Below, piece after piece: positions 2,504-34,000 of a stretch of 64,000 bases of DNA. Below the pieces are notes generated by a model. That model saw only the letters and a program-made list of their open reading frames with translations. It did not search any database and was not told the origin of the DNA. The stretch is taken from contig OZ023214.1 of NCBI GenBank assembly GCA_963995525.1, forward strand, positions 13,595,267 through 13,659,266, written 5' to 3'. Origin of the DNA: Escarpia spicata. Taxonomy: Eukaryota; Annelida; Polychaeta; Sabellida; Siboglinidae. The position numbers were made by a program, and so were the translations under genes. Numbering within the stretch: position 1 is the stretch's first letter; the number at the start of each line of letters is the position of its first letter.

Positions 2504-2763
2504 CAGGGGGCTAAGGTGGATACGTAAGGTTATAAAGGTAAGTTTTTAAATGACGCTGAAATTGTATAATATTTTCAACTGATCTAACACTAAGATGGAG
2601 CAAATTCCAGAGAGTTGGTGCAGCAACTCATGCAAAAATGCTCTAGTTCCAATATTAGTATTGACTCTAGAAACAAAAAAGTAAATCAGAACTAGATGAT
2701 CGAAGCTAGAAAGGCGTTTTTACAGGAGTAAGCAATGGACACCCGCCCTATAAGGGCTTATGA

Positions 2764-2769
2764 GACAGT
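2764..2769. repeat. Target site duplication, left (GACAGT)
   Basis: GACAGT directly abuts the left terminus AGTAGTATGTAGGC of the palindromic element. The identical hexamer follows the right terminus at 16070-16075. Confidence 0.8.
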
Positions 2770-2844
2770 AGTAGTATGTAGGCATAGATGCGGCTCGCCC
2801 CGCCCCTTTTTAGGCCTCGCTCTATGCATAAAAAACGTGCTAAT

Positions 2845-3075
2845 CGTTTTCGGGAACATACTTATAAAAAAAGATCAAAGGGTTTTGTGTAACCTGATCG
2901 TTTTCGGGAACATACTTATAAAAAACGTGATTGATGGCCTGTCACTTTTGATTGAAGACCTTGAGGCGCCGCCTAACGGTCATCCCAGTGACCATTTTAC
3001 CCTAGCGGTCAACGTAGGACCTACCGAATCATATATATATGGGAACATACTTATAAAAACGTGATTGATGGCCTG
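2845..3075 (+). repeat. Subterminal repeats of the element, left
   Basis: The phrase gggaacatacttataaaa occurs three times (near 2855, 2908 and 3040), preceded twice by atcgttttc. The phrase cgtgattgatggcctgtcac with ttttgattga occurs twice. Mirror copies lie at 15765-16000. Repeated subterminal motifs are typical of transposase or integrase binding ends. The spurious 109-codon frame here is made of these repeats. Confidence 0.75.
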
Positions 3076-3149
3076 TCACTTTTGATTGATTACCCTTCCC
3101 TTGAGGTGCCGCCACCTAGCGGTTATTTCAGTGACTAATTGCTTACGTA

Positions 3150-3205
3150 TAATTATAATTAATAATAATTAATTAATTAATTAAATATTATTAATTAATT
3201 AATTA

Positions 3206-3236
<31 letters not shown>
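3150..3236. repeat. AT-rich microsatellite, left arm
   Basis: Runs of taat/aatta followed by (TA)n. The counterpart in the right arm is 15611-15690 and is slightly shorter. Confidence 0.9.
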
Positions 3237-3237
<1 letters not shown>

Positions 3238-3593
3238 GCTTATGTAAGCCTGTATATAACCACAACGGTTATAGCGGCGCTGCGCTCTAAACCCATTGTG
3301 TGAAAATAACCCCGCTGTACCCTATGTAGCAGCAGCGGCGCTCGCAGCAGTAGCAGCAGCCGTGACCTATGATCTGGTGGCCTAGTTTCTAAATATAGCC
3401 GTGCGGCGTAGCCGGAACGGTTTTAATATCAGGCGGCGTACAGCGTAGTTGGCGCTGTCAAACCGAAACGAATTATGTATTCAGCGATGAAACGTTTAAA
3501 AGCTGTACTCAGCGGCCTGTTAAGGCAGGGTGGTTATGTGCGGTGGATAGACGAATGGAAGCAAAACGGTGTAAGATTATTTGTTTTATTACA

Positions 3594-4247
3594 TTAGAAA
3601 GCATCACGGTGGCGTGAGAGCGCCCCAGGGGAGCGCGAACAGGCCATAATGGGTGCGCGACTCCACCCGAGCTGGCAGGCGACGGCGGTGGCAGGATTCG
3701 CGGGTGCACACGACATACAGGTTTGTTGTAGAGTGTTGTGTGTAGGCAGGTGTATTTCCTTTCCACGTCGAGGCAGGTGGATTGTGTGAAATAATGCATA
3801 TGAATAATGAGGAGTTTCCCAAGAACTAAATCACTGTTATTAATATAAAAGTAATTAATAAAGAATAGTTTAATACAAGAATAGCATATAAATAATATAA
3901 AAGTAATTAATATAAAACTTACCGATAGGATAAAAGACGAAATACCGCTGTACTAAATAAATAAAATAAAATAAAATAAAACTTACCGCTGTTCTTTGCA
4001 TATGAATAATGGAAGAGAACTAAATCACTGTTATTAATATAAGAGGAGAACTAAATCAATAATTAATAAAGAATAGTAATTAATAAAGAATAGCATATTA
4101 TTAATATAAAAGTAATTAATAAAGAATATAAAACTTACGGATAGGATAAAAGACGACTTACCGCTCTACTAAATAAATAAAATAAAATAAAACTTACCGC
4201 TGTTCTTTCGTGGAAGGTTGCTCAGACGTTGTGCTGCAGGTAGCCAT
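3594..4247 (-). CDS. Putative two-exon small gene in left arm (function unknown)
   Basis: On the minus strand an ATG at 4247 opens a 50-nt exon (4247-4198) encoding MATCSTPSEQ and more, ending at a GTAAGT donor in phase 2. An acceptor (gtgatttag) at 3826 opens a 232-nt exon (3825-3594) that stays in phase and stops at TAA, giving 93 codons in total. A polyadenylation signal AATAAA sits at 3585-3590, four bases past the stop. The predicted second exon contains a CMSC (CxxC) motif. Two other frames of the same exon are also open (72 and 96 codons), so the true frame is uncertain. The mirrored copy in the right arm has exactly the same exon lengths, which supports a real unit. I recognise no family. 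Transcription runs outward, towards the element end. Confidence 0.35.
3950..4200 (-). repeat. Tandem donor-bearing AT-rich block
   Basis: Read on the minus strand, a phrase with agcggtaagttttattttattttatttatttag recurs, along with taagtttta, ctttattaattac and gatttagttct. Each copy contains a consensus-like splice donor (ggtaagt) and an acceptor-like tttattta-g. It lies within the intron of the small minus-strand gene candidate. A related module occurs at 6176-6340 and 11546-11705. Confidence 0.6.
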
Positions 4248-4302
4248 GATTGAATGAAAATGAGCAACGACCGTTGCATGCATGCATTATTTCCTAAAGT
4301 CA

Positions 4303-5090
4303 TTTATGCGTTAAGCGCGCATGCGCGAAAATGACGTAAAAACATTGAATGCAAGAGATCGAAATAGCAATAAACGAAAATATAAATGCATGAAATGATG
4401 CGTTGTATAATATTATTTAGGGATCGGGCCTTTTGTGGTGTATAAATAATACAGAAACTCGATGTAAAAAGTCACATTTGTGAAAACGAATGTACTAAAG
4501 AGAACGCTGATTTTTTTTTCCTGCAGCAGAAACCGAATGGTGACGCAAAACAGCTGTGGCGCTTGATGTTATGCGTTAAGTGCGCATGCGCGAAAGCGAC
4601 GTAAAAACATTGAATGCAAAGAGTTCGAAATAGCAATAAACGGACATTTTAATACATGAAATGAAGCGTTGTATACGCTTAGTTAGGGCTAGGGCATCTT
4701 GTGGTGAATTAATAATAGAGAAATTCGAAGTAAAAGTCACATTTGACAACGAATGTACTAAAGCGACCGCTAATTTTTTTCTTCCTGAAGCGGATAACTA
4801 GAAACCGAATGGTGACGCATAAACAGCTGTGACGTTAATCGAGGGATCGCATATCGCGATCGGAATGTGAAGCTAGAACAATGCCATTTCAAAAACGATA
4901 CACGAACTATTAAAAGCATGAATTGAAGCGTTGTTTAGGATCAGTGGGAAATAGGATTCTGTGTAGTGCCATTATATTATAGAAATTCGATGTAAATAAA
5001 CGTTGGTGAACGAAAAGCACTACATGACCGTTCATTTTTTTCCGAAAGCAAAGACATCCGAGACTAGTCAGTTATGCGTTAGGCGAAATG
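4303..5090 (+). repeat. Three degenerate tandem repeats of about 265 bp
   Basis: Three copies begin near 4303, 4566 and 4830. Shared phrases include atgcgttaagcgcgcatgcgcgaaa, gaaatagcaataaacg, catgaaatgatgcgttgta, gatgtaaa.gtcacattt.., gaacgctgattttttttcct and gaaaccgaatggtgacgc. They occupy the space between the two diverging gene candidates. This could be a duplicated promoter/5' region or repeated intron-exon junctions, since each ends in a pyrimidine tract followed by cag/aag. Confidence 0.65.
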
Positions 5091-5175
5091 TTGTAATAGA
5101 ACCGTAAATTACATAATGGCATGGTGTTCAGCTTACGAAACGAACTTATTTAAAGCATGACATTTTCTTCTGTAG

Positions 5176-5830
5176 GAGGTGCGTCGCGTACTGCTGGACA
5201 GGTTAGCGAACAACGAGAGGATGCGTGCAAGGTATGCGGAGGTTGCCTTGTTCGTACAAACACTGCTGGACGGGGAAGTGGCGGATAGTGAGACGAAAGA
5301 TGCTGTGCTGATGGCCCGAGTTGCTAAAAAAAAGGGCGGACTAATCATAATAATGTGTGTTTGTAGGCGGCACGACAGTGCACCAGGCGTGAATGTATGT
5401 GCGAGTTCCTAGATGCTGACGGTGGTCGTAAAGATTAGTAGGACCTGCTTTGTGCTGTAGGGGTGCGTGCGTAGCGATAACGAGTTGGACGTTATCATCG
5501 AGGAGGCGCTAGGCGTACCACACATCGAATTGCCGACGTACGAGAGTCTGTACACGGTGTCGCCAACACCGCCGGAAGTGATACAACGTCAAGGCGTCGC
5601 GACGGCTCGGGGTCAGTTGGCCTTCCGCTATGAGCGGCACGCGATGTCCCTCCTCGCCGAACACCTCAGTGAGATGATTCTGGAGAGGGCGCGCGATCGA
5701 TGCGGCGCTGTATCTGGTCCAGTTCGTTTCGGACTGGCTGCTAGGCACGGACTGGCGCGACTACATCAACCGCGCTCTGCTGGAGTCGACCGTTCATACG
5801 TACATTCAGCGCAGGAGCGGACTCGAATAG
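5176..5830 (+). pseudogene. Spliced gene candidate of unknown function, left arm, broken
   Basis: Three acceptor-like sites (ttcttctgtag at 5175, tgtgtttgtag at 5366, tttgtgctgtag at 5460) each precede coding-like sequence rich in charged residues. The first block encodes a helical stretch starting RRVLLDRLANNERMRARY and is open from 5176 to 5412. The last block is open from 5461 with DNELDVIIEEALGVPHIE. Coding character moves to the +1 frame at about 5695-5705, where a clean helical and tryptophan-containing stretch continues to a TAG at 5828-5830. A polyadenylation signal AATAAA is at 5870-5875. The same frame change is present in the right arm, so either both copies inherited it, or conversion spread it, or a tiny intron is missed. 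No family recognised. Codon use is GC-rich compared with the AT-rich surroundings. Confidence 0.5.
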
Positions 5831-5869
5831 AACATTATGCTTGCTTTGTTTGCTATAACATTGGTTAAA

Positions 5870-5875
5870 AATAAA
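5870..5875 (+). terminator. Polyadenylation signal AATAAA
   Basis: AATAAA lies 40 bases after the TAG stop of the plus-strand gene candidate in the left arm, just before the 21-bp minisatellite begins. Confidence 0.5.
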
Positions 5876-6175
5876 AGCCGTTGTTTTGAATGTTGTACTA
5901 CGATGGCGACGCTTAATAAAACGTTGAAAATGTACTTTCCGTTCGACAGTCCCACACAGCTCCCTGAAAGTACCACACAATTTCCTGACAGTCCCACACA
6001 GCTCCTTGACAGTCACACACAGCTTCCGACAGTCACACGCAGTTCCCTGACAGTCCCACACAGTTACCCGACAGTCACACAAAACTCCTGACAGTCCCAC
6101 ACAGCTCCATAATAGTATTACACAGCTTCCTGACAGTCCCACACAGTTCCTGGCAGTCCCACACAGCTCCATGAC

Positions 6176-6340
6176 ATTTATTTTATTTAGTTCTTATTAT
6201 TTAGCAATAGACCGGTAAGATGCCTTTTACACGAGTCCTATTAATTATCTTTATTAATTAATAAGAACCTCATTAGTCATGTTTTGATTTAATTTGGGAA
6301 CCTCCTCATTAGTCACAGCGATATAGCGGTAGGATCTGGC
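6176..6340. repeat. AT-rich module inside the minisatellite, left
   Basis: This is the reverse complement of 11546-11705. It contains gaccggtaagatgcc, ctttattaattaataagaacctcattagtca and gggaacctcctcattagtca. It resembles the donor-bearing AT block of the arms (ggtaag, ctttattaatta, cctcattat), suggesting a duplicated arm fragment. Confidence 0.7.
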
Positions 6341-6424
6341 AGTCCCACACAGCTCCATGACAGTCCCACACAGTTTATGACAGTCCCACACAGCTTCCCG
6401 ACAGTCCCACACAGCTCCCTGGCT

Positions 6425-6660
6425 ACATGTTTCCCTTCCATACATTGTCTAACTTGTGACATGTTTGCCTTCCATACATGATCTAGCTTGTTACATGTTT
6501 GCCTTCCATACACGGACTAGTTTGTTACATATTTACCTTCCATACATGAACTAGCTTGTTACATGTCTGCCTTCCATATATGGTCTAGCTTGTTACATGT
6601 TTGCCTTTCATACATGGTCTAGGCTGTTACATGTCTGCCTTCCATACATGGACTAGGTTG
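6425..6660. repeat. 34-bp minisatellite, left (about 7 copies)
   Basis: The unit read on the minus strand is gtaacaagctagaccatgta followed by tggaaggcaaacat, 34 bp. It is the reverse complement of the array at 11221-11455. Units abut each other with no unique spacers. Confidence 0.9.
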
Positions 6661-7734
6661 TTACAGCTCCCTGACAGTCCCATACAGCTTCCGACAGTCA
6701 CACGCAGTTCCCTGACAGTCCCACACAGTTACCCGACAGTCACACAAAACTCCTGACAGTCCCACACAGCTCCATAACAGTATTACACAGCTTCCTGACA
6801 GTCCCACATAGTTCCTGGCAGCCCCACACAGCTCCATGACAGTTCCACACAGTTCCCGACAGTCACACACAGCTTCCCGACAGTCCCACACAGCTCCCTG
6901 AAAGTATCACACAGCTCCCTGACAGTCCCACACAGCTCCCTGACAGTCACGCACAGCTCCCTGACAGTCCCACACAGCTCTCTGACAGTCCCACACAGCT
7001 CCTGACCATCACACACAGCTCCTGACAGTCCCACACAGTTCCCTTACAGTCCCACTCAACTCTTGACAGTCAAACACAGCTCCCTGACAGTCCCACACAG
7101 TTCCGGTCAGTCCCACACAGCTCCCTGACAGTCTCACACAGCTCCCTGACAGTCCCACACAGCTTCCCGACAGTCCCACATAGCTCCCTGCAAGTACCAC
7201 ACAATTCCCTGACAGTTCCACACAGCTCCCTGACAGTCACACACAGCTCCCCGGCAGTTCCCTGACAATCCCTGACAGTCCCACACAGCTCCATGACAGT
7301 CCCACACAGCTCCTGACCATCACACACAGCTCCTGACAGTCCCACACAGTTCCCTTACAGTCCCACACAACTCTTGACAGTCAAACACAGCTCCCTGACA
7401 GTACCACACAGTTCGTTCCCTGTCAGTCCCAAACAGCTCCCTGACAGTCTCACACAGCTCCCGGACAGTCCCACACAGCTCTCTGACAGTCTCACACAGC
7501 TCCCCCTGACAGTCCCACACAGCTCCATAACAGTATTACACAGCTTCCTGACAGTCCCACACAGTTCCTGGCAGTCCCACACAGCTCCATGACAGTCCCA
7601 CACAGTTCCCGACAGTCCCACACAGCTTCCCGACAGTCCCACACAGCTCCCTGAAAGTACCACACAATTCCCTGACAGTCCCACACAGCTCCTGACAGTC
7701 CCACACAATTCCCTGCCTGTCCCATACAATTCTT

Positions 7735-7785
<51 letters not shown>

Positions 7786-8095
7786 CTCTCTGACAGTCCC
7801 ACACAGCTCCCTGACAGTCCCACACAACTCCCTGACAGCCACACACAGCTCCCTGACAGTCACACACAACTCCCTGACATTCCCACACAGCTCATGACAG
7901 TCAGGCACAGCTCCTGACAGTCACACACAGCTCCCTGACAGTCCCACACAGCGCCCTGCAGTCACACACAGTTCCCTGACAGTCCCACACAGTTACCCGA
8001 CAGACACACAAACTCCTGACAGTGCCACACAGCTCTCTGACAGTATCACACAGCTCCCTGACAGTACCACGCAGTTCCTCGTCAGTCCCATACAG

Positions 8096-8335
8096 GGGTT
8101 CTGTATGTATGTATGTATGTATGTATGTATGTAGGTATGTAGGAGCCGTCGCACCACGGCGCCGATACTCGTCTAACTCGTATAACTAACTAATTAACTC
8201 GTCTAACTCGTAGAGGGGTGGCGGGGGGTTCTGTATGTATGTATGTATGTATGTATGTAGGTATGTAGGGTAATAAAAACATACAATTCACACTTGTTTC
8301 CATCGTTTTTTATTACTACTACTATACACGTAAAA
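8096..8335 (+). repeat. TATG/ACTCGT module, copy 1
   Basis: (TATG)n, then gtaggagccgtcgcaccacggcgccgatactcgtctaactcg, then gaggggtggcggggggttctg and a second (TATG)n, ending in tacaattcacacttgtttcc and cgttttttat. Reverse-complement copies lie at 8852-9060 and 9796-10008. Confidence 0.85.
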
Positions 8336-8340
8336 GCGCG

Positions 8341-10008
8341 CAGTCCCACACAGCTCCCTGACAGTCACACACAGCTCCCCGGCAGTACCACACAATGCCC
8401 TGACAGTCCCACACAGCTCCCTGACAGTCCCACACAGCTCCTGACCATCACACACAGCTCCTGACAGTCACACACAGTTCCCTTACAGTCCCACAACTCT
8501 TGACAATCAAACACAGCTCCCTGACAGTACCACACGGTTCGTTCCCTGTCAGTCCCACACAGCTCCCTGACAGTCCCACACAACTCCCTGATAGTCTCAC
8601 ACAGCTCCTCCTGACAGTCCCACACAGCTCCATAACAGTATTACACATCTTCCTGACAGTCCCACACAGTTCCTGGCAGTCCCACACAGTTCCATGACAG
8701 TCCAACTCATTCCACACAACTTCCTGACAGTCTCACACAGCTCCTCCTGACAGTCCCACACAGCTCCATAACAGTATTACACATCTTCCTGACAGTCCCA
8801 CACAGTTCCTGGCAGTCCCACACAGCTCCATGACAGTCCCACGCAGTTCCCGATAAAAAAACGATGAAAACAAGTGTGAATTGTATGTTTTTATTACCCT
8901 ACATACCTACATACATACAAACATACATACATACAGAACCCCCCGCCACCCCTCTACGAGTTAAACGAGTTAGTTAGTTAGTTAGTTATACGAGTTAGAC
9001 GAGTATCGGCGCCGTGGTGCGACGGCTCCTACATACCTACATACATACATACACGCAGAACCCCTGTATGGGACTGACGAGGAACTGCGTGGTACTGTCA
9101 GGGAGCTGTGTGAGACTGTCAGGGAGCTGTGTGGCACTGTCAGGAGTTTGTGTGTCTGTCGGGTAACTGTGTGGGACTGTCAGGGAACTGCGTGTGACTG
9201 TCGGAAGCTGTGTGTGACTGTCAAGGAGCTGTGTGGGACTGTCAGGAAATTGTGTGGTACTTTCAGGGAGCTGTGTGGGACTGTCGAACGGAAAGTACAT
9301 TTTCAACGTTACACACAGCTCCCCGGCAGTACCACACAATGCCCTGACAGTCCCACACAGCTCCCTGACAGTCCCACACAGCTCCTGACCATCACACACA
9401 GCTCCTGACAGTCACACACAGTTCCCTGACAGTCCCACAACTCTTGACAATCAAACACAGCTCCCTGACAGTACCACACGGTTCGTTCCCTGTCAGTCCC
9501 ACACAGCTCCCTGACAGTCCCACACAACTCCCTGACAGTCTCACACAGCTCCTCCTGACAGTCCCACACAGCTCCATAACAGTATTACACATCTTCCTGA
9601 CAGTCCCACACAGTTCCTGGCAGTCCCACACAGTTCCATGACAGTCCAACTCGTTCCACACAACTTCCTGACAGTCTCACACAACTCCTCCTGACAGTCC
9701 CACACAGCTCCATAACAGTATTACACATCTTCCTGACAGTCCCACACAGTTCCTGGCAGTCCCACACAGCTCCATGACAGTCCCACGCAGTTCCCGATAA
9801 AAAACGATGAAAACAAGTGTGAATTGTATGTTTTTATTACCCTACATACCTACATACATACATACATACATACATACATACAGAACCCCCCGCCACCCCT
9901 CTACGAGTTAAACGAGTTAGTTAGTTAGTTAGTTATACGAGTTAGACGAGTATCGGCGCCGTGGTGCGACGGCTCCTACATACCTACATACATACATACA
10001 TACAGAAC
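8341..10008. repeat. Centre of the palindrome: about 944-bp duplicated minisatellite block
   Basis: The text from 8362 (acacagctccccggcagtacc) to about 9060 recurs from 9304 to about 10008, an offset close to 944. Each copy is a 21-bp minisatellite followed by the reverse-complement TATG module. Between them (9060-9303) is a minisatellite in the opposite orientation ending in cgaacggaaagtacattttcaacg. That is the same junction between array and arm found at 12918-12940. The centre therefore contains a second array/arm boundary, a trace of rearrangement. Confidence 0.8.
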
Positions 10009-11220
10009 CCCTGTATGGGACTGACGAGGAACTGCGTGGTACTGTCAGGGAGCTGTGTGAGACTGTCAGGGAACTGTGTGTGACTGCCGGGCACTGTGTG
10101 GGGCTGTCAGGGAGCTGTGTGTGACTGTCAGGAGCTGTGCCTGACTGTCATGAGCTGTGTGGGAATGTCAGGGAGTTGTGCGTGACTGTCAGGGAGCTGT
10201 GTGTGGCTGTCAGGGAGCTGTGTGGGACTGTCAGGGAGCTGTGTGGGACTGTCAGAGAGCTGTGTGGGACTGACAGGGAACGAACTGTGTGGTACTGTCA
10301 GGGAGCTGTGATTGACTGTCAAGAGTTGTGTGGGACTGTAAGGGAACTGTGTGGGACTGTCAGGAGCTGTGTGTGATGGTCAGGAGCTGTGTGGGACTGT
10401 CATGGAGCTGTGTGGGACTGTCAGGGATTGTCAGGGAACTGCCGGGGAGCTGTGTGTGACTGTCAGGGAGCTGTGTGGGACTGTCAGGGAATTGTGTGGT
10501 ACTTTCAGGGAGCTGTGTGGGACTGTCGGGAAGCTGTGTGGGACTGTCGGGAACTGTGTGGGACTGTCATGGAGCTGTGTGGGACTGCCAGGAACTGTGT
10601 GGGACTGTCAGGAAGCTGTGTAATACTGTTATGGAGCTGTGTGGGACTGTCAGGAGTTTTGTGTGACTGTCGGGTAACTGTGTGGGACTGTCAGGGAACT
10701 GCGTGTGACTGTCGGAAGCTGTGTGGGACTGTCAGGGAGCTGTGTGAGACTGTCAGGGAGCTGTGTGGGACTGACCGGAACTGTGTGGGACTGTCAGGGA
10801 GCTGTGTTTGACTGTCAAGAGTTGTGTGGGACTGTAAGGGAACTGTGTGGGACTGTCAGGAGCTGTGTGTGATGGTCAGGAGCTGTGTGTGACTGTCAGA
10901 GAGCTGTATGGGACTGTCAGGGAGCTGTGTGTGACTGTCAGGGAGCTGTGTGGGACTGTCAGGGAGCTGTGTGATACTTTCAGGGAGCTGTGTGGGACTG
11001 TCGGGAAGCTGTGTGTGACTGTCGGGAACTGTGTGGGACTGTCATGGAGCTGTGTGGGACTGCCAGGAACTGTGTGGGACTGTCAGGAAGCTGTGTAATA
11101 CTGTTATGGAGCTGTGTGGGACTGTCAGGAGTTTTGTGTGACTGTCGGATAACTGTGTGGGACTGTCAGGGAACTGCGTGTGACTGTCGGAAGCTGTGTG
11201 GGACTGTCAGGGAGCTGTAA
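10009..11220 (-). repeat. 21-bp minisatellite array, right of centre
   Basis: The same unit as on the left, but reverse complement (ctgtgtgggactgtcaggga). Further blocks lie at 11457-11545, 11706-11862 and 12833-12925. The reading frames over it are repeat artefacts. Confidence 0.95.
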
Positions 11221-11455
11221 CAACCTAGTCCATGTACGGAAGGCAGACATGTAACAGCCTAGACCATGTATGAAAGGCAAACATGTAACAAGCTAGACCA
11301 TATATGGAAGGCAGACATGTAACAAGCTAGTTCATGTATGGAAGGTAAATATGTAACAAACTAGTCCGTGTATGGAAGGCAAACATGTAACAAGCTAGAC
11401 CATGTATGGAAGGCAAACATGTCACAAGTTAGACCATGTATGGAAGGGAAACATG
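11221..11455. repeat. 34-bp minisatellite, right, short block
   Basis: About seven copies of gtaacaagctagaccatgta plus tggaaggcaaacat. This is the mirror of 6425-6660. Confidence 0.9.
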
Positions 11456-11545
11456 TAGCCAGGGAGCTGTGTGGGACTGTCGGGAAGCTGTGTGGGACTG
11501 TCGGGAACTGTGTGGGACTGTTATGGAGCTGTGTGGGACTGCCAG

Positions 11546-11705
11546 AACCTACCGCTCTATCGCTGTGACTAATGAGGAGGTTCCCAAATTAAATCAAAAC
11601 ATGACTAATGAGGTTCTTATTAATTAATAAAGATAATTAATAGGACTCGTGTAAAAGGCAACTTACCGGTCTATTGCTAAATAATAAGAACTAAATAAAA
11701 TAAAT
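11546..11705. repeat. AT-rich module inside the minisatellite, right
   Basis: Reverse complement of 6176-6340, including actaatgaggttcttattaattaataaag and ttaccggtctattgc. Confidence 0.7.
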
Positions 11706-11862
11706 GTCACGGAGCTGTGTGGGACTGTCAGGAAGCTGTGTAATACTGTTATGGAGCTGTGTGGGACTGTCAGGAGTTTTGTGTGACTGTCGGGTAACTG
11801 TGTGGGACTGTCAGGGAACTGCGTGTGACTGTCGGAAGCTGTGTGGGACTGTCAGGGAGGTG

Positions 11863-12832
11863 TAACAACCTAGTCCATGTACGGAAGGCAGACATGTAAC
11901 AAGCTAGACCATATATGGAAGGTAGACATGTAACAAGCTAGATCATGTATGGAATGCAAATATGTAACAAGCTAGTCCGTGTATGTAAGGCAAACATGTA
12001 ACAAGCTAGACCATGTATGGAAGGCAAACATGTCACAAGTTAGACCATGTATGGAAGGGAGACATGTAGCAAGCTAGACCAAGTATGGAAGACAGACATG
12101 TAACAAGCCAGACCATGTACGGAAGGCAAACATGTAACAAGCTAGTCCGTGTATGGAATGCAAACATGTAACAAGCTAGTCCGTGTATGGAAGGCAAACA
12201 TGTAACAAGCTAGTCCGTGTATGGAAGGCAAACATGTAACAAGCTAGTCCATGTACGGAAGGCAAACATGTATCAAGCTAGACCATGTATGAAAGGCAGA
12301 CCTGTAACAAGCTAGACCATGTATGGAAGGCAAACATGTAACAAGCTAGTCCATGTACGCAAGGCAAACATGTAACAAGCTAGTCCGTGTATGGAAGGCA
12401 AACATGTAACAAGTTAGTCCATGTACGTAAGGCAAACATGTAACAAGCTTGTTCGTGTATGGAAGGCACACATGTAACAAGCTAGTCCATGTACGTAAGG
12501 CAAACATGTAACAAGCTAGACCATGTACGGAAGGCCAACATGTAACAAGCTAGTCCATGTACGGAAGGCAGACATGTAACAGGCTAGACCATGTATGAAA
12601 GGCAGACATGTAGCAAGCTAGACCATGTATGGAAGGCAGACATGTAACAAGCCAGACCGTGTATGGAAGGTAAACATGTAACAAGCTAGTCCGTGTATGG
12701 AAGGCAAACATGTAACAAGCTAGACCATGTATGGATAGCAAATAAGTAAAAAGCTAGTACATGTATGGAAGGTAGACGTGTAACAAGCTAGACCATGTAC
12801 GGAAGGCAAACATGTAACAAGCTAGACGTACT
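11863..12832. repeat. 34-bp minisatellite, right, expanded block (about 28 copies)
   Basis: The 34-bp unit (gtaacaagctagtccatgta, cggaaggcaaacat) runs for almost 1 kb. The left half has no counterpart at this place, where only the 21-bp array is found. This expansion, inserted in the outer 21-bp block, is the largest asymmetry between the halves. Confidence 0.9.
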
Positions 12833-13032
12833 GCCGGGAGCTGTGTGTGACTGTCAAGGAGCTGTGTGGGACTGTCAGGAAATTGTGTGGTACTTTCAGG
12901 GAGCTGTGTGGGACTGTCGAACGGAAAGTACATTTTCAACGTTTTATTAAGCGTCGCCATCGTAGTACAACATTCAAAACAACGGCTTTTATTTTTAACC
13001 AATGTTATAGCAAACAAAGCAATCATAATGTT

Positions 13033-13687
13033 CTATTCGAGTCCGCTCCTGCGCTGAATGTACGTATGGACGGTCGACTCCAGCAGAGCGCGGTTGATGT
13101 AGTCGCGCCAGTCCGTGCCTAGCAGCCAGTCCGAAACGAACTGGACCAGATACAGCGCCGCATCGATCGCGCTCCCTCTCCAGAATCATCTCACTGAGGT
13201 GTTCGGCGAGGAGGAACATCGCGTGCCGCTCATAGCGGAAGGCCAACTGACCCCGAGCCGTCGCGACGCCTTGACGTTGTATTACTTCCGGCGGTGTTGG
13301 CGACACCGTGTACAGACTCTCGTACGTCGGCGGTTCGATGTGTGGTACGCCTAGCGCCTCCTCGATGATAACGTCCAACTCGTTATCGTTACGCACGCAC
13401 CCCTACAGCACAAAGCAGGTCCTACTAATCTTTACGACCACCGTCAGCATCTAGGAACTCGCACATACATTCACGCCTGGTGCGCTGTCGTGCCGCCTAC
13501 AAACACACATTATTATGATTAGTCCGCCCTTTTTTTAGCAACTCGGGCCATCAGCACAGCATCTTTCGTCTCACTATCCGCCACTTCCCCGTCCAGCAAT
13601 GTTTGTACGAACAAGGCAACCTCCGCATACCTTGCACGCATCCTCTCGTTGTTCGCTAACCTGTCCAGCAGTACGCGACGCACCTCC
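13033..13687 (-). pseudogene. Spliced gene candidate of unknown function, right arm copy
   Basis: Mirror of 5176-5830. It has the same acceptor-like sites, the same charged helical stretch, the same DNELDVIIEEALGVPHIE block and the same +1 frame change near 13160-13170. The stop (CTA on the plus strand) is at 13033-13035. A few amino-acid changes separate it from the left copy, for example leucine to proline in the peptide after PHIE and alanine to glutamate just before the frame change. The function is unknown. Confidence 0.5.
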
Positions 13688-14600
13688 TACAGAAGAAAAT
13701 GTCATGCTTTAAATAAGTTCGTTTCGTAAGCTGAGCACCATGCCATTATGTAATTTACGGTTATATTACAACATTTCGCCTAACGCATAACTGACTAGTC
13801 TCGGATGTCTTTGCTTTCGGAAAAAAAAAATGAACGGTCATGTAGTGCTTTTCGTTCACCAACGTTTATTTACATCGAATTTCTATAATATAATGGCACT
13901 ACACAGATCCCTATTTCCCACTGATCCTAAACAACGCTTCAATTCATGCTTTTAATAGTTCGTGTATCGTTTTTGAAATGGCATTGTTCTAGCTTCACAT
14001 TCCGATCGCGATATGCGATCCCTAGATTAACGCCACAGCTGTTTATGCGTCACCATTCGGTTTCTAGTTATCCGCTTCAGGAAGAAAAAATTGGCGTTCG
14101 CTTTAGTACCTTCGTAGTCAAATGTGACTTTTACATCGAATTCCTCTATTATTAATTCACCACAAGATGCCCTAGCCCTAACTAAGCGTATACAACGCTT
14201 CATTTAATGTATTTAAATTTCCGTTTATTGCTATTTCGAACTCTTTGCATTCAATGTTTTTACGTCGCTTTCGCGCATGCGCACTTAACGCATAACATCA
14301 CGCGCCACAGCTGTTTTGCGTCACCATTCGGTTTCTGCTGCAGGAAAAAAAAATCAGCGTTCTCTTTAGTACATTCGTTTTCACAAATGTGACTTTTTAC
14401 ATCGAATTTCTCTATTATTTATACACCACAAAAGGCCCGATCCCTAAATAATATTATACAACGCTTCATTTCATGCATTTATATTTTCGTTTATTGCTAT
14501 TTCGATCTCTTGCATTCAATGTTTTTGCGTCATTAACGCATAAATGACTTTAGGAAATAATGCATGCAATGCAACGGTCGTTGCTCATTTTCATTCAATC

Positions 14601-15254
14601 ATGGCTACCTGCAGCACACCGTCTGAGCAACCTACCACGAAAGAACACCGGTAAGTTTTATTTTATTTTATTTATTTAGTAGAGCGGTAAGTCGTCTTTT
14701 ATCCTATCCGTAAGTTTTATATTCTTTATTAATTACTTTTATATTAATAATATGCTATTCTTTATTAATTACTATTCTTTATTAATTATTGATTTAGTTC
14801 TCCTCTTATATTAATAACAGTGATTTAGTTCTCCTCCATTATTCATATGCAAAGAACAGCGGTAAGTTTTATTTTATTTTATTTTATTTATTTAGTACAG
14901 CGGTATTTCGTCTTTTATCCTATCGGTAAGTTTTATATTAATTACTTTTATATTATTTATATGCTATTCTTGTATTAAACTATTCTTTATTAATTACTTT
15001 TATATTAATAACAGTGATTTAGTTCTTGGGAAACTCCTCATTATTCATATGCATTATTTCACACAATCCACCTGCCTCGACGTGGAAAGGAAATACACCT
15101 GCCTACACACAACACTCTACAACAAACCTGTATGTCGTGTGCACCCGCGAATCCTGCCACCGCCGTCGCCTGCCAGCTCGGGTGGAGTCGCGCACCCATT
15201 ATGGCCTGTTCGCGCTCCCCTGGGGCGCTCTCACGCCACCGTGATGCTTTCTAA
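14601..15254 (+). CDS. Putative two-exon small gene in right arm (function unknown)
   Basis: Mirror of the left-arm minus-strand gene. The ATG is at 14601, exon 1 is 14601-14650 with a GTAAGT donor, and exon 2 is 15023-15254 after the acceptor gtgatttag. The stop is TAA at 15252-15254 and AATAAA is at 15258-15263. Exon lengths (50 and 232 nt) equal those of the left copy and the phases agree. The product would be a 93-residue, proline- and arginine-containing protein with a CMSC motif. Other frames of exon 2 are open, so the choice rests on splice phase and the position of the poly(A) signal. No family recognised. Confidence 0.35.
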
Positions 15255-15257
15255 TGT

Positions 15258-15263
15258 AATAAA
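15258..15263 (+). terminator. Polyadenylation signal AATAAA
   Basis: Lies four bases after the TAA stop of the right-arm small gene candidate. The mirror is at 3585-3590. Confidence 0.45.
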
Positions 15264-15610
15264 ACAAATAATCTTACACCGTTTTGCTTCCATTCGTCTA
15301 TCCACCGCACATAACCATCCTGCCTTAACAGGCCGCTGAGTACAGCTTTTAAACGTTTCATCGCTGAATACATAATTCGTTTCGGTTTGACAGCGCCAAC
15401 TACGCTGTACGCCGCCTGATATTAAAACCGTTCCGGCTACGCCGCACGGCTATATTTAGAAACTAGGCCGCCAGATCATAGGTCACGGCTGCTGCTACTG
15501 CTGCGAGCGCCGCTGCTGCTACATAGGGTACAGCGGGGTTATTTTCACACAATGGGTTTAGAGCGCAGCGCCGCTATAACCGTTGTGGTTATATACAGGC
15601 TTACATAAGC

Positions 15611-15690
15611 ATATATATATATATATATATTAATTAATTAATTAATTAATAATATTTAATTAATTAATTAATATTAATTATAATTATACG
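15611..15690. repeat. AT-rich microsatellite, right arm
   Basis: (AT)n followed by ttaattaattaat runs; mirror of 3150-3236. Confidence 0.9.
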
Positions 15691-16069
15691 TAAGCAATTA
15701 GTCACTGAAATAACCGCTAGGTGGCGGCACCTCAAGGGAAGGGTAATCAATCAAAAGTGACAGGCCATCAATCACGTTTTTTATAAGTATGTTCCCATAT
15801 ATATATGATTCGGTAGGTCCTACGTTGACCGCTAGGGCTAAAATAGTCACTGGGATGACCGTTAGGTGGCGCCTCAAGGTCTTCAATCAAAAGTGACAGG
15901 CCATCAATCAAGTTTTTTATAAGTATGTTCCCGAAAACGATCAGGTTACACAAAACCCTTTGATCTTTTTTTTATAAGTATGTTCCCGAAAACGATTAGC
16001 ACGTTTTTTATGCATAGAGCGAGGCCTAAAAAGGGGCGGGGCGAGCCGCATCTATGCCTACATACTACT

Positions 16070-16075
16070 GACAGT
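16070..16075. repeat. Target site duplication, right (GACAGT)
   Basis: Identical to 2764-2769 and directly follows the right terminus CTACATACTACT of the palindromic element. Confidence 0.8.
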
Positions 16076-17079: not shown

Positions 17080-18730
17080 ACCATGAATGAGCAAAAATTA
17101 AAAACAGCTGCTGAAAGCTAAGAAACACGCATTTCAGACCGGTGACAGAGTTAAATTAAAAGTGGCACAGGCAAATTTGAAATCAGGGGTAAGGAAATGT
17201 AAAGAAGAATATAAAAAACAAGATACAATCACAGTTTCAGGTGAACAACACAAAACAAGCCTGGTGCAGTGTTAAATCAATCCTCGGTTGCCGCAAATCT
17301 CACAAATGTTACAGTGTTACTAACTCGATCGACTTCGCTAAAGACCTAAACACTTTTGTATTGTCGATTTGATTTTTAAAACGAGAGAAATTGTGCTTTT
17401 CAAGATGCTACTTTACTCCCAGACCACTCATTCGAACTATCCACATATGATGTAGCCAGCGTTTGTAAGAATCTAAAAACAAACAAAGCTGCTGGGCCTG
17501 ACAAAATAACGGGTAAGCTACTTAGGTGTGTCGTGAGCAGCTGAGCGGTGTCTTTCAAATGCTGTTTCAATTGTGCGTTGAGCTGAGTGAGGTTCCACTT
17601 CAGTGGAAAACATCCGAAATTATACCCGTTCCTAAAAAGCTTAACCCAGTATATCTCAACGACTACAGACCTATCGCTCTTACATCACTGGGGATGAAAT
17701 CGTTTGAGAGAATAGTGCTGAAATATTTGTTACCCGAGGTTGAACACCTACTTGATCCTCTGCAATTCGCATACAGAACTAAACGCAGTGTGGAATATGC
17801 CACCTTGTCTATACTAAATGTCATTCACGAACACCTTGAACGTCCACGTTCGTATGCTAGAATCCTATTCATAGATTTTTCATCAGCATTTAATACAATT
17901 CAGCCGCATTTGGTGATTAGAAAACTGATTGGTCTCGGAGTTGGTAAACAATTTGTCATGCTTATCCATAGTTTCCTCACCCGCTCAAGGGTGTGAGCTG
18001 ACACCATTTCTATATGCCATGTACACACATTCTTGTAGAAGTACTTGTTCAAGCTGCCACTGTTTCAAATATGCTCTGCTCTTGTTGGTCTGATCTCAAA
18101 TGACGAGAGTGAGTTCAGAAGCAATGTAGATCATTTGGTATCATGGTGTATGAATGTTATCAAGACAAAAGGAAATTGTAATAGACTTTCGATCAGGTGT
18201 ACATCGTCCCAATCCAGTCAACATCAAAGGGCAAAACATTTAAATTGTTCATACATACAAATATCTTGGTACTACAATTGATGACAAGCAAAGGTGGGAT
18301 GATAATACAATGACTCTATACAAAAAAGGCCAGCAAAGATTCCTGGGAAAACTCAATGCAGTGCATGTTGACAGAAATATCCTGTCTCTGTTTCACAATT
18401 CATTTGTGAAGTGTTATGACTTTTGGGCTTATTTGCTGGTGGGGAAATCTCTCGGTCAAAAGCAGAGGGAAACTAAATAAGCTATATACCACTTCTTGCA
18501 AGATTGCTGGATGTTGTACACTTGAAACCAGTTTACAGCAATTGTACAAGTCGAGAACCCTGCAAATGGCAAAGAAAAATGTATCTGACCCCACCCACTT
18601 CTTACACGACCAGTATGACCTTCTCCCCCTTGGAAGGAGGCACGTAATGCCAACTGTACGAACTCAACGTATGCTGAAATCGTTAATTCCATCTTCTATC
18701 AAGTTCCTGAACCAGTCATGGATACATCAC
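17080..18730 (+). pseudogene. Decayed non-LTR retrotransposon (L2/CR1/Rex-like) reverse transcriptase
   Basis: A broken pol gene read in shifting frames. First comes the linker after the endonuclease (KHAFQTGDRVKLKVAQANLK, near 17128). Then follow the RT start with NKAAGPDKITGKLL (17480), NDYRPIALTSLGMKSFERIV (17660-17720), QFAYRTKRSVEYA and the catalytic-region motif ILFIDFSSAFNTIQP (17866-17910). The clean frame ends at TGA 17994. Further down are KEIVIDFR-like text (18175), FHNSFVKC..MTFGLICWWGN (18390-18450) and the C-terminal HFLHDQYDLLPLGRRHVMP (18595-18655). The YxDD segment is missing, by deletion between 18000 and 18045. The clade is judged from motif style only. It is dead: several stops and frameshifts. 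Confidence 0.85.
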
Positions 18731-23792: not shown

Positions 23793-25443
23793 ATGTCTGC
23801 AAAGCGTGCTCGTGCTGTTGATGGAGTTGCTGACGGCGGATCACTAAAGAACAAATCTGCGAAGCATTACTGCTCCTTTAGTTCTGCTTGGCGGAACCGA
23901 GAGTTCACGGTGGATGTTGGCGTCTCCGCTGGTCGGAAAACATTCTCCGGGAACGTTCTGTCAGGGACTGATGGTGACAGTGACGCTTTCTGCTCCCTCT
24001 GTAAGCTGAAGTTTTCTGTTCGCCATGGAAGAGCAAACGATGTCTGCAAGCATTTCGGCACGGCGAAACATATATCGAGTGTGTCCGCGCCAAAATCTAC
24101 GAAATCCTTCGACTTCGGCGATACATGCAAAAACTGCTAAAAGTAAAGCTGTTCGAGACAAAGCAGAGGAAAAAAATTGCAAGTTATGCGAGCTGAAGCA
24201 GTTCGTAGCTGAGCACAACCTAGCATTTCGTGTTGGTGACCATTTCACTATACTTGTGAAGAATATGTTTTCGGATTCTGAAGAGATTTTTCCGATCCAA
24301 CAGTGATGAAAGCTGTTACGCGTTTCGTAGATTTGCCAACTGCTAATGATGGTACAGCTGCGGCGATTTTTGACAAGATAGATAACTGTCTAACGTCCCG
24401 CAACATCAAATTGGAGAAGCTGGTATGTCTCAACAGTGACACTTGCAATACAATGAAGGGTCAGCGGAATGGAGTCGTCCGACACTTGCGCGATCGGTAA
24501 CCTGACATGACATCTGGAGAATTTTGCGATAAAGACTGGTGGATATCAACTCGCATTTCTGCTCCCCACTGTGAATACATTCAACGTGGCATTCCCGGCC
24601 ACGAACACCACGACCATACGTTTGCTTCACCCAGAGATGAAGAAGTTGACGAAACGGATGCTTCGATTCTTCGTCACTGCTGACAGAATCAACCTGGCTG
24701 ACATCACGGCTACCGAGTACGGGGACATCGACGATCAGCTGATGGATGACGATCTGGATGTTGGTGAGACTACCCGTACATTGGGTGCGGAGATGATAGA
24801 CGATGGGATGGAGCACCTGGTCCCGGCATTTTTTGATCATGTTGGTCAGTTCTACTGTATATTTGTGAAAACATTGATCAAGAAATTCCCATTCCAATCG
24901 ACTCTCCTGTCTGACCTTCGGGTTCTGAACCCCTTGGAGCGGCTGTCCTACCAGGATTTGCCCAATGTTGTCGTCCGGCTGGCAAAGCATCTCCCTCAGC
25001 TTCAACTGGCGGACAAGTTGGACCAGCTGAGGACAGAAGCAGTCGACTTCCAAATGGCTGATGGCGAAGACCTCCCGCAAAACAATGATGTCGATGATTT
25101 CTGGGCCAAGGTCCACGAAATTAGAGGCATGGGCTCAAGCCAACCAACGTACGCTACAATATTGGTACTCCTTCGTGCCATTCTTGCACTTCCTGCCAGC
25201 AATGCTGACAGTGAACGTTGCTTCTCCATGGTTCGCAAGATAGACTCAGAGGAACATAGCCACCTTGAGCGTAGCACCGTCGCATCTCTTCTCACACTGA
25301 AGGTTAATGGTGATGATGACTGCCATGCTTTTAAGCCCTCTCCTGAAATACTGAGGCTTAACACGTCAGCTGTACGGCAGGGTAATAAGGACCATGGTAG
25401 CTATGATAAGCCCGCTGAGGTGCAAGCTGAACTTGAAGCATGA
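23793..25443 (+). pseudogene. hAT-superfamily transposase, broken
   Basis: The ATG at 23793 opens an N-terminal part with a BED-like zinc-finger pattern (CSLCKLKF...CKHFGTAKH, 23990-24068). A frameshift near 24115 moves the reading to the next frame (KSKAVRDKAEEKNCKLCELK). A second break near 24303 continues with KLVCLNSDTCNTMKGQRNGV, the conserved sDgantM-like segment. A stop at about 24498 and probable loss of the middle of the catalytic domain follow. The C-terminal third (24571-25443) is a clean 290-codon frame ending with the hAT dimerisation motif LPASNADSERCFSMVRKI (25188-25240). hAT enzymes move DNA by cut and paste with 8-bp duplications. I could not define the terminal inverted repeats. 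Confidence 0.85.
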
Positions 25444-31042: not shown

Positions 31043-34000
31043 TTATACGGCGTCGGCGACGCTGTCTTCCACACCAGTCGCGGCTGTTGCAGTCTCTGCA
31101 ATAAACATCGCAACATGCAGATATTGATTGACCTTCACTGCATTCATATTGTCAAGCGTCATCCAGATCCAGGACATATTCACCATTTTCACACAGCCTA
31201 AACTCAGTCAGAAACATCAAAAAACGGTGACCATGCATATGGGCGTGTCCAGGCGTCTGATAACGACGATGTCAATCTGCGCTAAAGGACGGTCTGAAAA
31301 CGAAGACGTCCAACGAAGGCGGACGGTCTGAGAATGAGGACGACCAACGCAGACGGACGTTCTCAAAATGAGGACGTCCAAGGTAGACGGACGGTCTCAA
31401 AATGAGGACGTCCAACGAATATGGACTGCCTCAAAATGAAGACGTCCAACACAGACGGACGGTCTCAAAATGAGGACGACCAAATTTTAGTAAAATGTGC
31501 GATTTGTTATGTATGTACATGTGTACGAAACATATGTATGATTATGCTGTCAGACTGTCAAAGAATACTGACAGCAAGGACTTCCAACTAGGCAGACGGA
31601 CAGTCTTACATAAAGGATGTCCATCCGCGTGGACGAGTAGTCGGACAGGACAAATAACGACATCCAACGCAGATAAACAGTCGCCTGACGAGGACATCCA
31701 ACCGAGCAGACGGACAGTTTAAAAATAGGACGAACAACCGAGCAGATGGACAGTCTCACACATAGGATAACCTACCGAGCAGACGGAACAGTTTCACAAA
31801 GTGGACGAACAACCGGACAGACGGACAGTTTCACAAAGAGGAAGAACAACCGAGCAGACGGACAGTCTCACAAAGAGGAGGATCAACTGAGCAGACGGAA
31901 AGTCTCATAAAGAGGACGTCCAGTTGGAAAGGACAGTCGGGCAAATACGACGTCAAACCACGCAACAGGACCGAACATTCAACAGATCATAAAGCATAAT
32001 TCAACAATGTGAATACAATTGCACTCCGATATTTCGTCAGTAAATATGTATAATGATTCCTCTGCTGACTCTGTTGTCAACATACCAACACTAAACGCTG
32101 ACAATACAGTTCACTTACCCAATTCATTATGTGCGCTGTGTGAGACGATTCCATTATCATCCAAGTCAAGGGACTTTTTAGAGAGTCCACGGAAAGCGCT
32201 CAGATGACCAATTGTATCAAATGCACTCATCTTTAATCCACTTAAAGCACGCTGGTGCCTAATTAGATTACCTAATCCCTTCTTAGGGTCTTGGGACAGA
32301 ACTCCCTGTAATTCGAGCATAGCATTGAGTACGTTTATTGTCTCTTTCGCTGAATCACCACGATCGTCATGTTCCTGACCGAGCCGATCGTCGTGTTCCC
32401 GACTGAAGTCAGAGCCGAACTTGCTTGAGGACCCGATTTTGTCGAAGGGTCTCTTCTCCCTACCGCCGACGTGGACTGGTTTACTCTGTACTCTCTTCTT
32501 TAGTCCACCGACAGCGTTTTGGTGCGCAATTGTATCAAATACTCTCTTATTTAGACCATCGAAAGCACTGCGGTGCGCAACTGTATTATGGAATGCTCTT
32601 TTCTTAAGTCCACCGAATTGGCTTTGGTGCCCAATTGTATCGAATGCTCTTTTCGTGGGGCCATACAACAAAACTCCCAGAAATTCTATGGTATCAATGA
32701 TTGCTTTTGATACCTCTTTCACTGAATCACCATTATCGTTATGTTTCTGATGAAGGTCTGAGGCGAACTTGCTTGAGTACCCGATTTTGTCGAAGGGTGT
32801 TTTCTTTAGTCCATCAAAAGAGCTCTGATGCCCGATTGTATCAAATGCCTTCTTATTTATTTTATTATTATTATTAAGACCAATATGACGCCCAACTGTA
32901 TTATCCGATGTTTCTGTACGATTGTGCGACGGTATCTGAACGAGATCAGAGGCGAACTTGCTTGCGTACCCGATTCTATCGAATGGTCGCTTCTCCTTAC
33001 CTCCGACGTTGACAAGTTTACTATGTACGTCGTTAAACTTCACCGATCGCTTTAGCCTTCCAAAAGAGCTGCCGTGTCCAATCTTGTCGAACGCCCGTTT
33101 TAAGTCGACGGGATTGTCAGCGTCCAAGTCTCGATCTGGGTTGACGTACGTCCCGCCAAGAGAGTGGAGCTGCCGACCAACGTCTGGCAAGTTGGCGTCG
33201 CCTAGTGTGTCGAGCTGACTTTCACCGAACGGGTCATCGGCCAAGCCAGATAGTAGTTCCTGCGAACAAACGAGAACAGTGTATTGTAATAGGTGATGGA
33301 AATACGTGTACATACTACGTTGATATATTCAGGTGTAGAGTAATGTCTCAACAGTGTAACTGCCATCAATGGTACCATCCACATTGTGATGATCTTTACA
33401 TAAATATAAAGGTAATTTATTATATAGCGTGGTATCCAATCGTGATGACTGCACAAAGTGTTTTATACTTCACCCACAGGCAGACCTAATTTGAACACAA
33501 TCTTAAGATGGCCTCGGTCAGCCGCAGTGTAATTACTATGCACTGTGCAAAGGTTAGTCGTTCACATGACTGTCTGTAGCTAGGTCCTCTTTCATACAGC
33601 TGACTGAACTGGCGCAACGTCAAGTGAATGAAATAGTCGCTAAATATCTTCATGTAGTCAAAATAGCTTGCTGACTAACTTTGTGTCAAATTTGATATTA
33701 AACAAACATGGCTCCTAATGCACCAAATTCACACAGAAGAGTTCATATCCACTCGGAGATTAAGATCAATAGTCAATTCAAAATTACACACGCAAATTTG
33801 TAAAATAGTATTTACTACGTCATAATAACAATAATAGTAATTATATCAGTGTGTATTTTACGTCGAAATCACTAGTATTGAGGCGACATAAATGCTACAT
33901 TGTACATGCTACGTTTCTTGTCTTATTAGTCGCCTCATTTGAGTTGTCGTGAAGCTTCCGCAGTGGAAACTGAGTTGTTTCGCATTGAAGTGTTAGGCCG

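Follow-up and report, generated by a model that had tools for sequence, protein, structure and literature searches.

A palindromic, probably non-autonomous Maverick/Polinton derivative and its relatives in the genome of the annelid Escarpia spicata

A 64,000-nucleotide stretch of the genome of the annelid Escarpia spicata (contig OZ023214.1; referred to throughout as the window) carries a palindromic insertion of 13.3 kb, at positions 2770-16069, with AGTAGT...ACTACT termini. Our best explanation, in which we have considerable confidence, is that this element is a non-autonomous palindromic derivative of the Maverick/Polinton group, one of about a hundred in the genome, for which helper elements would supply the enzymes and whose arms would be copied from each other. 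Long palindromes are generally regarded as prone to loss or rearrangement when they sit in chromosomes, that is, as unstable; the genome nonetheless has roughly a hundred with kilobase-long arms, and their sequences allow us to ask how such structures arise.

The outline of the element is sharply defined. The end sequence AGTAGTATGTAGGCATAGATGCGGC occurs exactly at 2770-2794 (forward strand) and 16045-16069 (reverse strand) and nowhere else in the window (chance expectation 0 from 100 shuffles), and the hexamer GACAGT is duplicated directly outside both ends, just as an earlier sequence-only reading of this stretch had described. That reading also gave the arms as near-perfect and about 3.2 kb long. 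The outer arms (2770-6033 and 12830-16069) are indeed 97.6% identical over 3,271 aligned columns, with 41 mismatches and 10 gap openings; the mirror is longer than claimed and extends into the minisatellite core, its inner limits being 8340 in the left half and 9798 in the right. Across 5,254 ungapped columns the two halves are 97.2% identical, with 148 mismatches and 25 gaps. Identity lies between 97.3 and 99.6% in all eight 500-base bins from 2770 to 6769, the single low bin (82.6%) falls inside minisatellite, and the sole large gap between the arms is 1,002 bp present in the right arm only, corresponding to a 34-bp array at 11861-12827. Mirrored arms cover about 11.8 of the 13.3 kb, and the interior consists mainly of 21-bp and 34-bp minisatellites.

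As judged by sequence comparison, each arm is the polymerase-side end of a resident Maverick minus an RPA-like gene and the middle of a second gene, here called gene B, which precedes polB. The reference is L016/L017, a full-length element of 16.4 kb on C1 with PolB, an integrase with rve and chromo domains and a 256-bp terminal repeat, the kind of autonomous relative sharing the element's ends that the sequence-only reading had proposed to look for. Arm positions 1-271 align with L016 148-420 at 92.7%, and the first 150 bp of the element are 94.0% identical to the C1 Maverick. Further pieces follow the polB-side end of L016 in order (arm 441-820 at 81.8%, 1799-2337 at 85.6% and 2333-2605 at 82.7%), as do the colinear inner pieces at 2666-2938 (84.1%), 2939-3058 (84.2%) and 3140-3173 (97.1%). 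Two deletions interrupt this colinearity: 0.94 kb is gone from the arm, including the RPA-like gene (L016 frame 2578-3285), and about 230 bp from the middle of gene B. The end motif, the 6-bp duplication and the polB-side colinearity together support the earlier suggestion of a non-autonomous palindromic Polinton/Maverick derivative, and the alternative floated with it, a new class of giant foldback element, is unneeded.

Gene B was recognised through its neighbours. The arm open frame 5461-5865 has one protein match, P0001, which as a query found P0002 and P0003; the last is encoded on a contig of 3,450 bp whose database label is a bacterial endosymbiont of the tubeworm Escarpia laminata and which we infer to be host DNA. 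A large open frame comes after gene B on this contig, and a motif of 28 bases after gene B is common to arm and contig (96%). Of 7,995 candidates scored against the large frame, 630 are relatives at E ≤ 0.001; among the 120 listed, many bear the label PF03175 (DNA polymerase B), and two of the four relatives scanned with Pfam pass the cut-off of that family. These gene B remnants had escaped the sequence-only reading. When 13 protein queries from two resident Mavericks were compared with the element by tblastn (E ≤ 1e-3), the only matches were, in both arms, the two outer parts of gene B and short matches of a frame that overlaps the terminal repeat; PolB, integrase, ATPase and the RPA-like protein had none, in line with the earlier claim for polymerase, integrase and ATPase genes, and the same queries detected their counterparts in L016/L017 (PolB in L016, integrase and ATPase in L017). 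Unassigned frames of the Maverick relatives, none of them named as a capsid gene, likewise found no match in the element at this threshold. Five arm pieces contained no Pfam domain, and the IMG/VR viral contigs contained neither an exact copy of the end nor a relative of gene B or PolB.

Two full-length resident elements, L016/L017 and L010/L011 (C5:33770076-33786541), are called Mavericks here because of their gene sets, ends and duplications, with the caveat that the Pfam PF03175 score is under its cut-off in both. The PolB of L016/L017 is 56% identical to P0004 and 61% to P0110, and its target duplication is CAGGTG; L010/L011, with a terminal repeat of 265 bp, carries gene B and an RPA-like gene, two frames with PolB homology (49% and 51% to P0008), an rve integrase that includes a chromodomain, and an ATPase resembling Adeno_IVa2/Pox_A32. 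The Replication factor-A C-terminal domain (PF08646) scores above its cut-off at L010 2286-3089, L012 2012-2788 and L016 2578-3285, in each case in a gene upstream of gene B and polB. Genome matches to gene B number at least 150, with 150 of 1,447 candidates scored; most of these matches contain no stop, and the abundance of the gene suggests a large recent Maverick expansion.

The element has many siblings. Its first 371 bases have at least 60 matches in the genome (40 of 1,193 candidates scored), many of them in convergent pairs; the search with the element's end proposed in the sequence-only reading does return other copies, with duplications of their own. A 32-bp sequence spanning the gene B deletion junction is found 227 times in the 1.06-Gb genome with up to 3 mismatches (119 forward, 108 reverse), and its backwards control not at all. 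Among the 100 junction places listed, which are exact matches only so that mismatched partners escape pairing, 82 form 41 convergent pairs within 30 kb, spaced 2.7-23 kb apart (median 7.4 kb). Ends were read for 20 pairs including the present element, two of them being gene B loci (L010/L011, and L012/L013 with L035/L036); 16 of the 20 have perfect 6-bp duplications, as do four of the four pairs picked by the junction alone, and in the remaining four (C2s, C5, C6 and the C9 pair) the flanks mirror each other where the ends were read. Only the ends of C13a and C11 were read, and C6, C2s and the C9 pair contain no junction in the parts read. C3a, first treated as a full element, has two junctions, the left one 7.5 kb from the end, and was then counted as a derivative; with it included, 12 of 13 junction-bearing copies with ends read have a perfect 6-bp duplication, and the duplications of the 11 copies used in the end comparison below are all different. 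On these sequence counts the element is a member of a family of roughly a hundred palindromic derivatives. At C2s, C5 and C6 (L018/L033/L034, L019/L020/L029/L030 and L027/L028/L031/L032) the mirror continues into the flanks at 99.98-100% identity, over 404 bp to more than 6 kb, and then stops, with N runs near two of the three; these mirrored flanks are probable assembly fold-backs at palindromes.

What points to copying between the arms is that their ends agree within a copy and differ between copies, and that arm differences are private to a copy, the within-copy match of the ends being another feature that the sequence-only reading had not noticed. In 150-bp ends from 11 junction-bearing copies (C3a and C5 left out), mean identity was 98.3% within a copy and 84.4% between copies; 10 of the 11 left ends had their own partner as best match, and none of 20,000 permutations reached the observed sum. 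Inner arm segments of seven copies, by contrast, average 98.2% between copies and 98.8% within. Because the ends match within copies while the inner arms stay alike between copies, the ends must have been replaced, and replaced in pairs. A pairwise site-pattern test over 719 columns in seven copies, whose pairs are not independent, gave 84 site counts joining both arms of one copy and 2 joining arms across copies; C5 is included, and without its 6 pairs the counts are 68 and 2. (C4 is absent from both the inner-arm and the site-pattern comparisons, one segment being missing in one of its arms.) Between the present element and its sibling C3b, 2,113 columns gave 4 sites by copy and 0 across, with 12, 13, 13 and 14 changes private to single arms. 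Since arm differences are almost always private to one copy, the arms appear to have been alike at each copy's insertion and to have diverged afterwards, by about 0.6% per arm in the present element. The cores differ as well: in C2 and C13, arms of about 3.3 kb flank minisatellites of one orientation only, and in C3b, C4, C10 and C9 the minisatellite core is present in both orientations with inverted matches inside it. The mirror seems to have grown stepwise.

A mechanism can be envisioned in which the polymerase and integrase of full Mavericks would replicate and insert the element in trans. During protein-primed strand displacement a single strand would fold through its arms into a panhandle or hairpin, one arm would then template the other so that both are identical at insertion, and a terminus captured from another Maverick could in this way spread to the opposite side. 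The inverted repeat would lengthen in steps, from the 256-265 bp of the two full elements through 3.3-kb arms around a one-way core to a mirrored core. PMC4046053 describes terminal-repeat panhandles as replication origins in protein-primed systems, and terminal proteins as typically encoded just upstream of polB or fused with it; because its place before polB fits that description, gene B is by analogy a candidate terminal protein. A structure prediction for gene B from three sequences was all helical, with a mean pLDDT of 51, too poor for a fold search. Copying between arms while the element is mobile would indirectly indicate that Mavericks replicate outside the chromosome through strands folded on their inverted ends.

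A bolder proposal, which we consider possible while leaning against it, is that these are true Maverick satellites, re-palindromised in each round and switching helpers, a counterpart of the symmetric defective genomes of adenoviruses, in which inverted gene B may yield double-stranded RNA against the helper. If so, a terminus from any helper Maverick would be copied to the other end outside the chromosome, so that the satellite changes helper and keeps two matching origins; the inverted gene B sequence could give double-stranded RNA against helper Mavericks; and the family would be a case of transposon satellites able to switch helpers.

Several other histories could produce a structure of this kind. 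Inverted duplication, followed by conversion of one arm by the other, might have built the palindromes within the chromosome once the elements had inserted, in which case they would never have moved as palindromes; the C9 pair, which is mirrored along with 3.4 kb of flank at 98.1%, speaks for this. As an account of the family this is nevertheless unlikely, for in 12 of 13 junction-bearing pairs the flanks are ordinary and the duplication is perfect, the same deletion junction lies in convergent pairs genome-wide, and the 12-14 differences private to each arm argue against steady conversion in place. We give slightly less credence still to a simple, ancient palindrome that multiplied as one unit, its arms never re-made and its ends altered by mutation. 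In the tree of inner arms the element and C3b do interleave, and copies vary little in this part, yet ends that match within copies are about 16% different between them, and arm differences are almost never common to copies (2 of 86 informative counts).

Fold-back errors may exist in this assembly, given the mirrored flanks of C2s, C5 and C6 and the nearby N runs, and one might suppose that a fold-back of a read or of the graph mirrored half of an ordinary element. For the present copy this is very improbable, because its mirror ends exactly at the termini, the left and right flanks are unrelated to each other, the duplication is intact, and numerous substitutions and indels separate the arms; in 11 further junction-bearing copies, too, the inverted ends match and the duplication is perfect. 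Least probable of all is a Foldback-type DNA transposon of the P or Mutator superfamily, a suggestion prompted by long, internally repetitive inverted arms around minisatellites. The ends and arms trace back to Mavericks that encode PolB and an rve integrase, Foldback target duplications are 8-9 bp, and no transposase of P or Mutator type was seen in the copies, although no search by family was made.

Some observations fit a palindromic Maverick derivative with inter-arm copying less well. Inner-arm identity is nearly equal within and between copies (98.8 and 98.2%), and in a short subset comparing the element with C3b alone, 0 sites group by copy and 1 across. The C3b pair is therefore weak by itself, and the evidence for re-making consists of the ends and the pooled, non-independent site patterns. 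The one-way cores of C2 and C13 are at odds with a full central fold in every round, and C5, with mirrored flanks and no duplication, is the sole exception among 13 junction-bearing copies.

Table 1. Features of the element and its target-site duplication, in window coordinates
Feature	Position	Strand	Remarks
Target-site duplication GACAGT, left	2764-2769		Abuts element end
Left palindrome half	2770-8340	+	Maverick terminus, polB-side remnants, minisatellites
Terminal region, starts AGTAGT	2770-3040	+	Homologous to 256-bp terminal repeat of C1 Maverick L016/L017
Open frame (possible gene), 147 residues, outward-reading	3512-3952	-	Identical twin in other arm, 14896-15336 (+)
Left-arm deletion point	5102-5106		Arm 2337/2333 versus L016 2444/3381
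Gene B remnant, left arm	5461-5829	+	Two parts in different frames, one ending at about 5707, the other starting at 5708
Conserved motif after gene B	5907-5930	+	Precedes polB in relatives; mirror copy 12933-12956
21-bp minisatellite, GACAGTCCCACACAGCTCC core	5945-8095	+	Broken by AT-rich block and 34-bp array (6424-6665)
Centre, partly duplicated minisatellite	8341-9797		Piece of arm's inner edge present a third time, inverted, at 9280-9310
Right palindrome half, inverted	9798-16069	-	Longer owing to right-only 34-bp array
34-bp minisatellite, about 28 copies	11861-12827		Right half only
Gene B remnant open frame, right arm	12998-13402	-	Same mid-gene deletion as left arm
Target-site duplication GACAGT, right	16070-16075		Abuts element end

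Among the features collected in Table 1, the 147-residue outward-reading frame had no relative in our searches, which included the IMG/VR viral contigs. The inverted inner-edge piece at the centre terminates exactly at the self-complementary AACGTT. By eye, tandem pieces with a repeated splice-donor-like GTAAGT can be made out in both arms (3900-4240 and 14640-15000), and a diverged copy of them lies within the AT-rich block (6176-6340). The terminus folded as RNA was unremarkable (z -1.47). GACAGT is also a 6-mer of the interior minisatellite, which was first thought meaningful; since the duplications of the other copies are unrelated, the match is taken as chance.

The resident Mavericks offer observations of their own. 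An accessory frame adjoining the right terminus (L011 5748-6413, reverse strand) has a weak NADAR match (E 7.7e-5, below the Pfam cut-off), and L017 holds a relative of it, 48% identical. The C9 pair (L012, L013, L035 and L036, around C9:15407018-15434918) is a 28-kb inverted repeat, 98.1% identical, each arm of which contains gene B and PolB-like frames; an extra terminus lies 6.6 kb further (L036, 6993), followed by AACGTA, which is identical to the 6-mer before the left end. This locus is either an inverted duplication within a Maverick or two haplotypes misjoined. Elsewhere in the window, a 400-residue open frame (32111-33313, reverse strand) with repeated KR-flanked FDxIGxxSxF peptides and no Pfam match presumably resembles a neuropeptide precursor of the pedal peptide/orcokinin type, and Pfam remnants of reverse transcriptase (PF00078, two places) and hAT transposase (PF05699) occur at 17526-17996 (forward), 62554-62919 (reverse) and 24571-25443 (forward).

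Compared with autonomous Mavericks/Polintons, the element has the 6-bp duplication and the (AGT)2//(ACT)2 ends and lacks PolB, rve integrase and packaging ATPase; as would be expected of a non-autonomous Maverick, it shares its ends with an autonomous member in the same genome, is colinear with it apart from two deletions, and exists in several copies whose duplications differ. Accounts of the group and its relatives are given in PMC6431247, PMC10045372 and PMC12220804. Vertebrate Mavericks have 6-bp duplications, terminal repeats of 46-1,447 bp (mean 402) and (AGT)2//(ACT)2 as the commonest end motif (PMC8097293), and the Polinton duplication is likewise 6 bp (PMC10045372). The IS3EU/GingerRoot elements also make 6-bp duplications and end in TA..TA, or occasionally TG..CA in GingerRoot (PMC10045372); membership there was rejected, the element's termini being AG..CT. 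Polinton-like viruses of protists resemble the element in their 6-bp duplications and in having terminal repeats that are hundreds to thousands of base pairs long, and differ in that those described carry capsid and replication genes (PMC12220804). Long terminal repeats are therefore not new in themselves, and the search reported there accepted repeats of up to 8 kb. Palindromic derivatives without movement genes are not described in the sections and passages covered from these four papers, and our literature search, which covered sources other than subscription papers and repeat databases, found no published description of palindromic or non-autonomous Maverick derivatives. The Maverick ancestry is thus familiar, and the palindromic build of a non-autonomous Maverick derivative is what we have not found described.

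The nearest relatives are the resident members of the Maverick/Polinton group (polintoviruses), with which the element has in common its 6-bp duplication, its end motif and an arm colinear with their polB-side end; it differs in having no PolB, integrase or ATPase and in its inverted arms of 5.6-6.3 kb and its minisatellite core. Foldback elements (FB, Galileo and Tetris) also combine long inverted arms with internal tandem repeats; the element's ends, ancestry and duplication length are different. A further structural parallel is offered by symmetric defective adenovirus genomes of the Ad12 SYREC type, which have one genome end twice in mirror orientation and are copied by the protein-primed polymerase of another genome, as by analogy the element may be. 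Unlike them, the element is chromosomal and inherited, with about a hundred insertions that have acquired deletions and minisatellites of their own.

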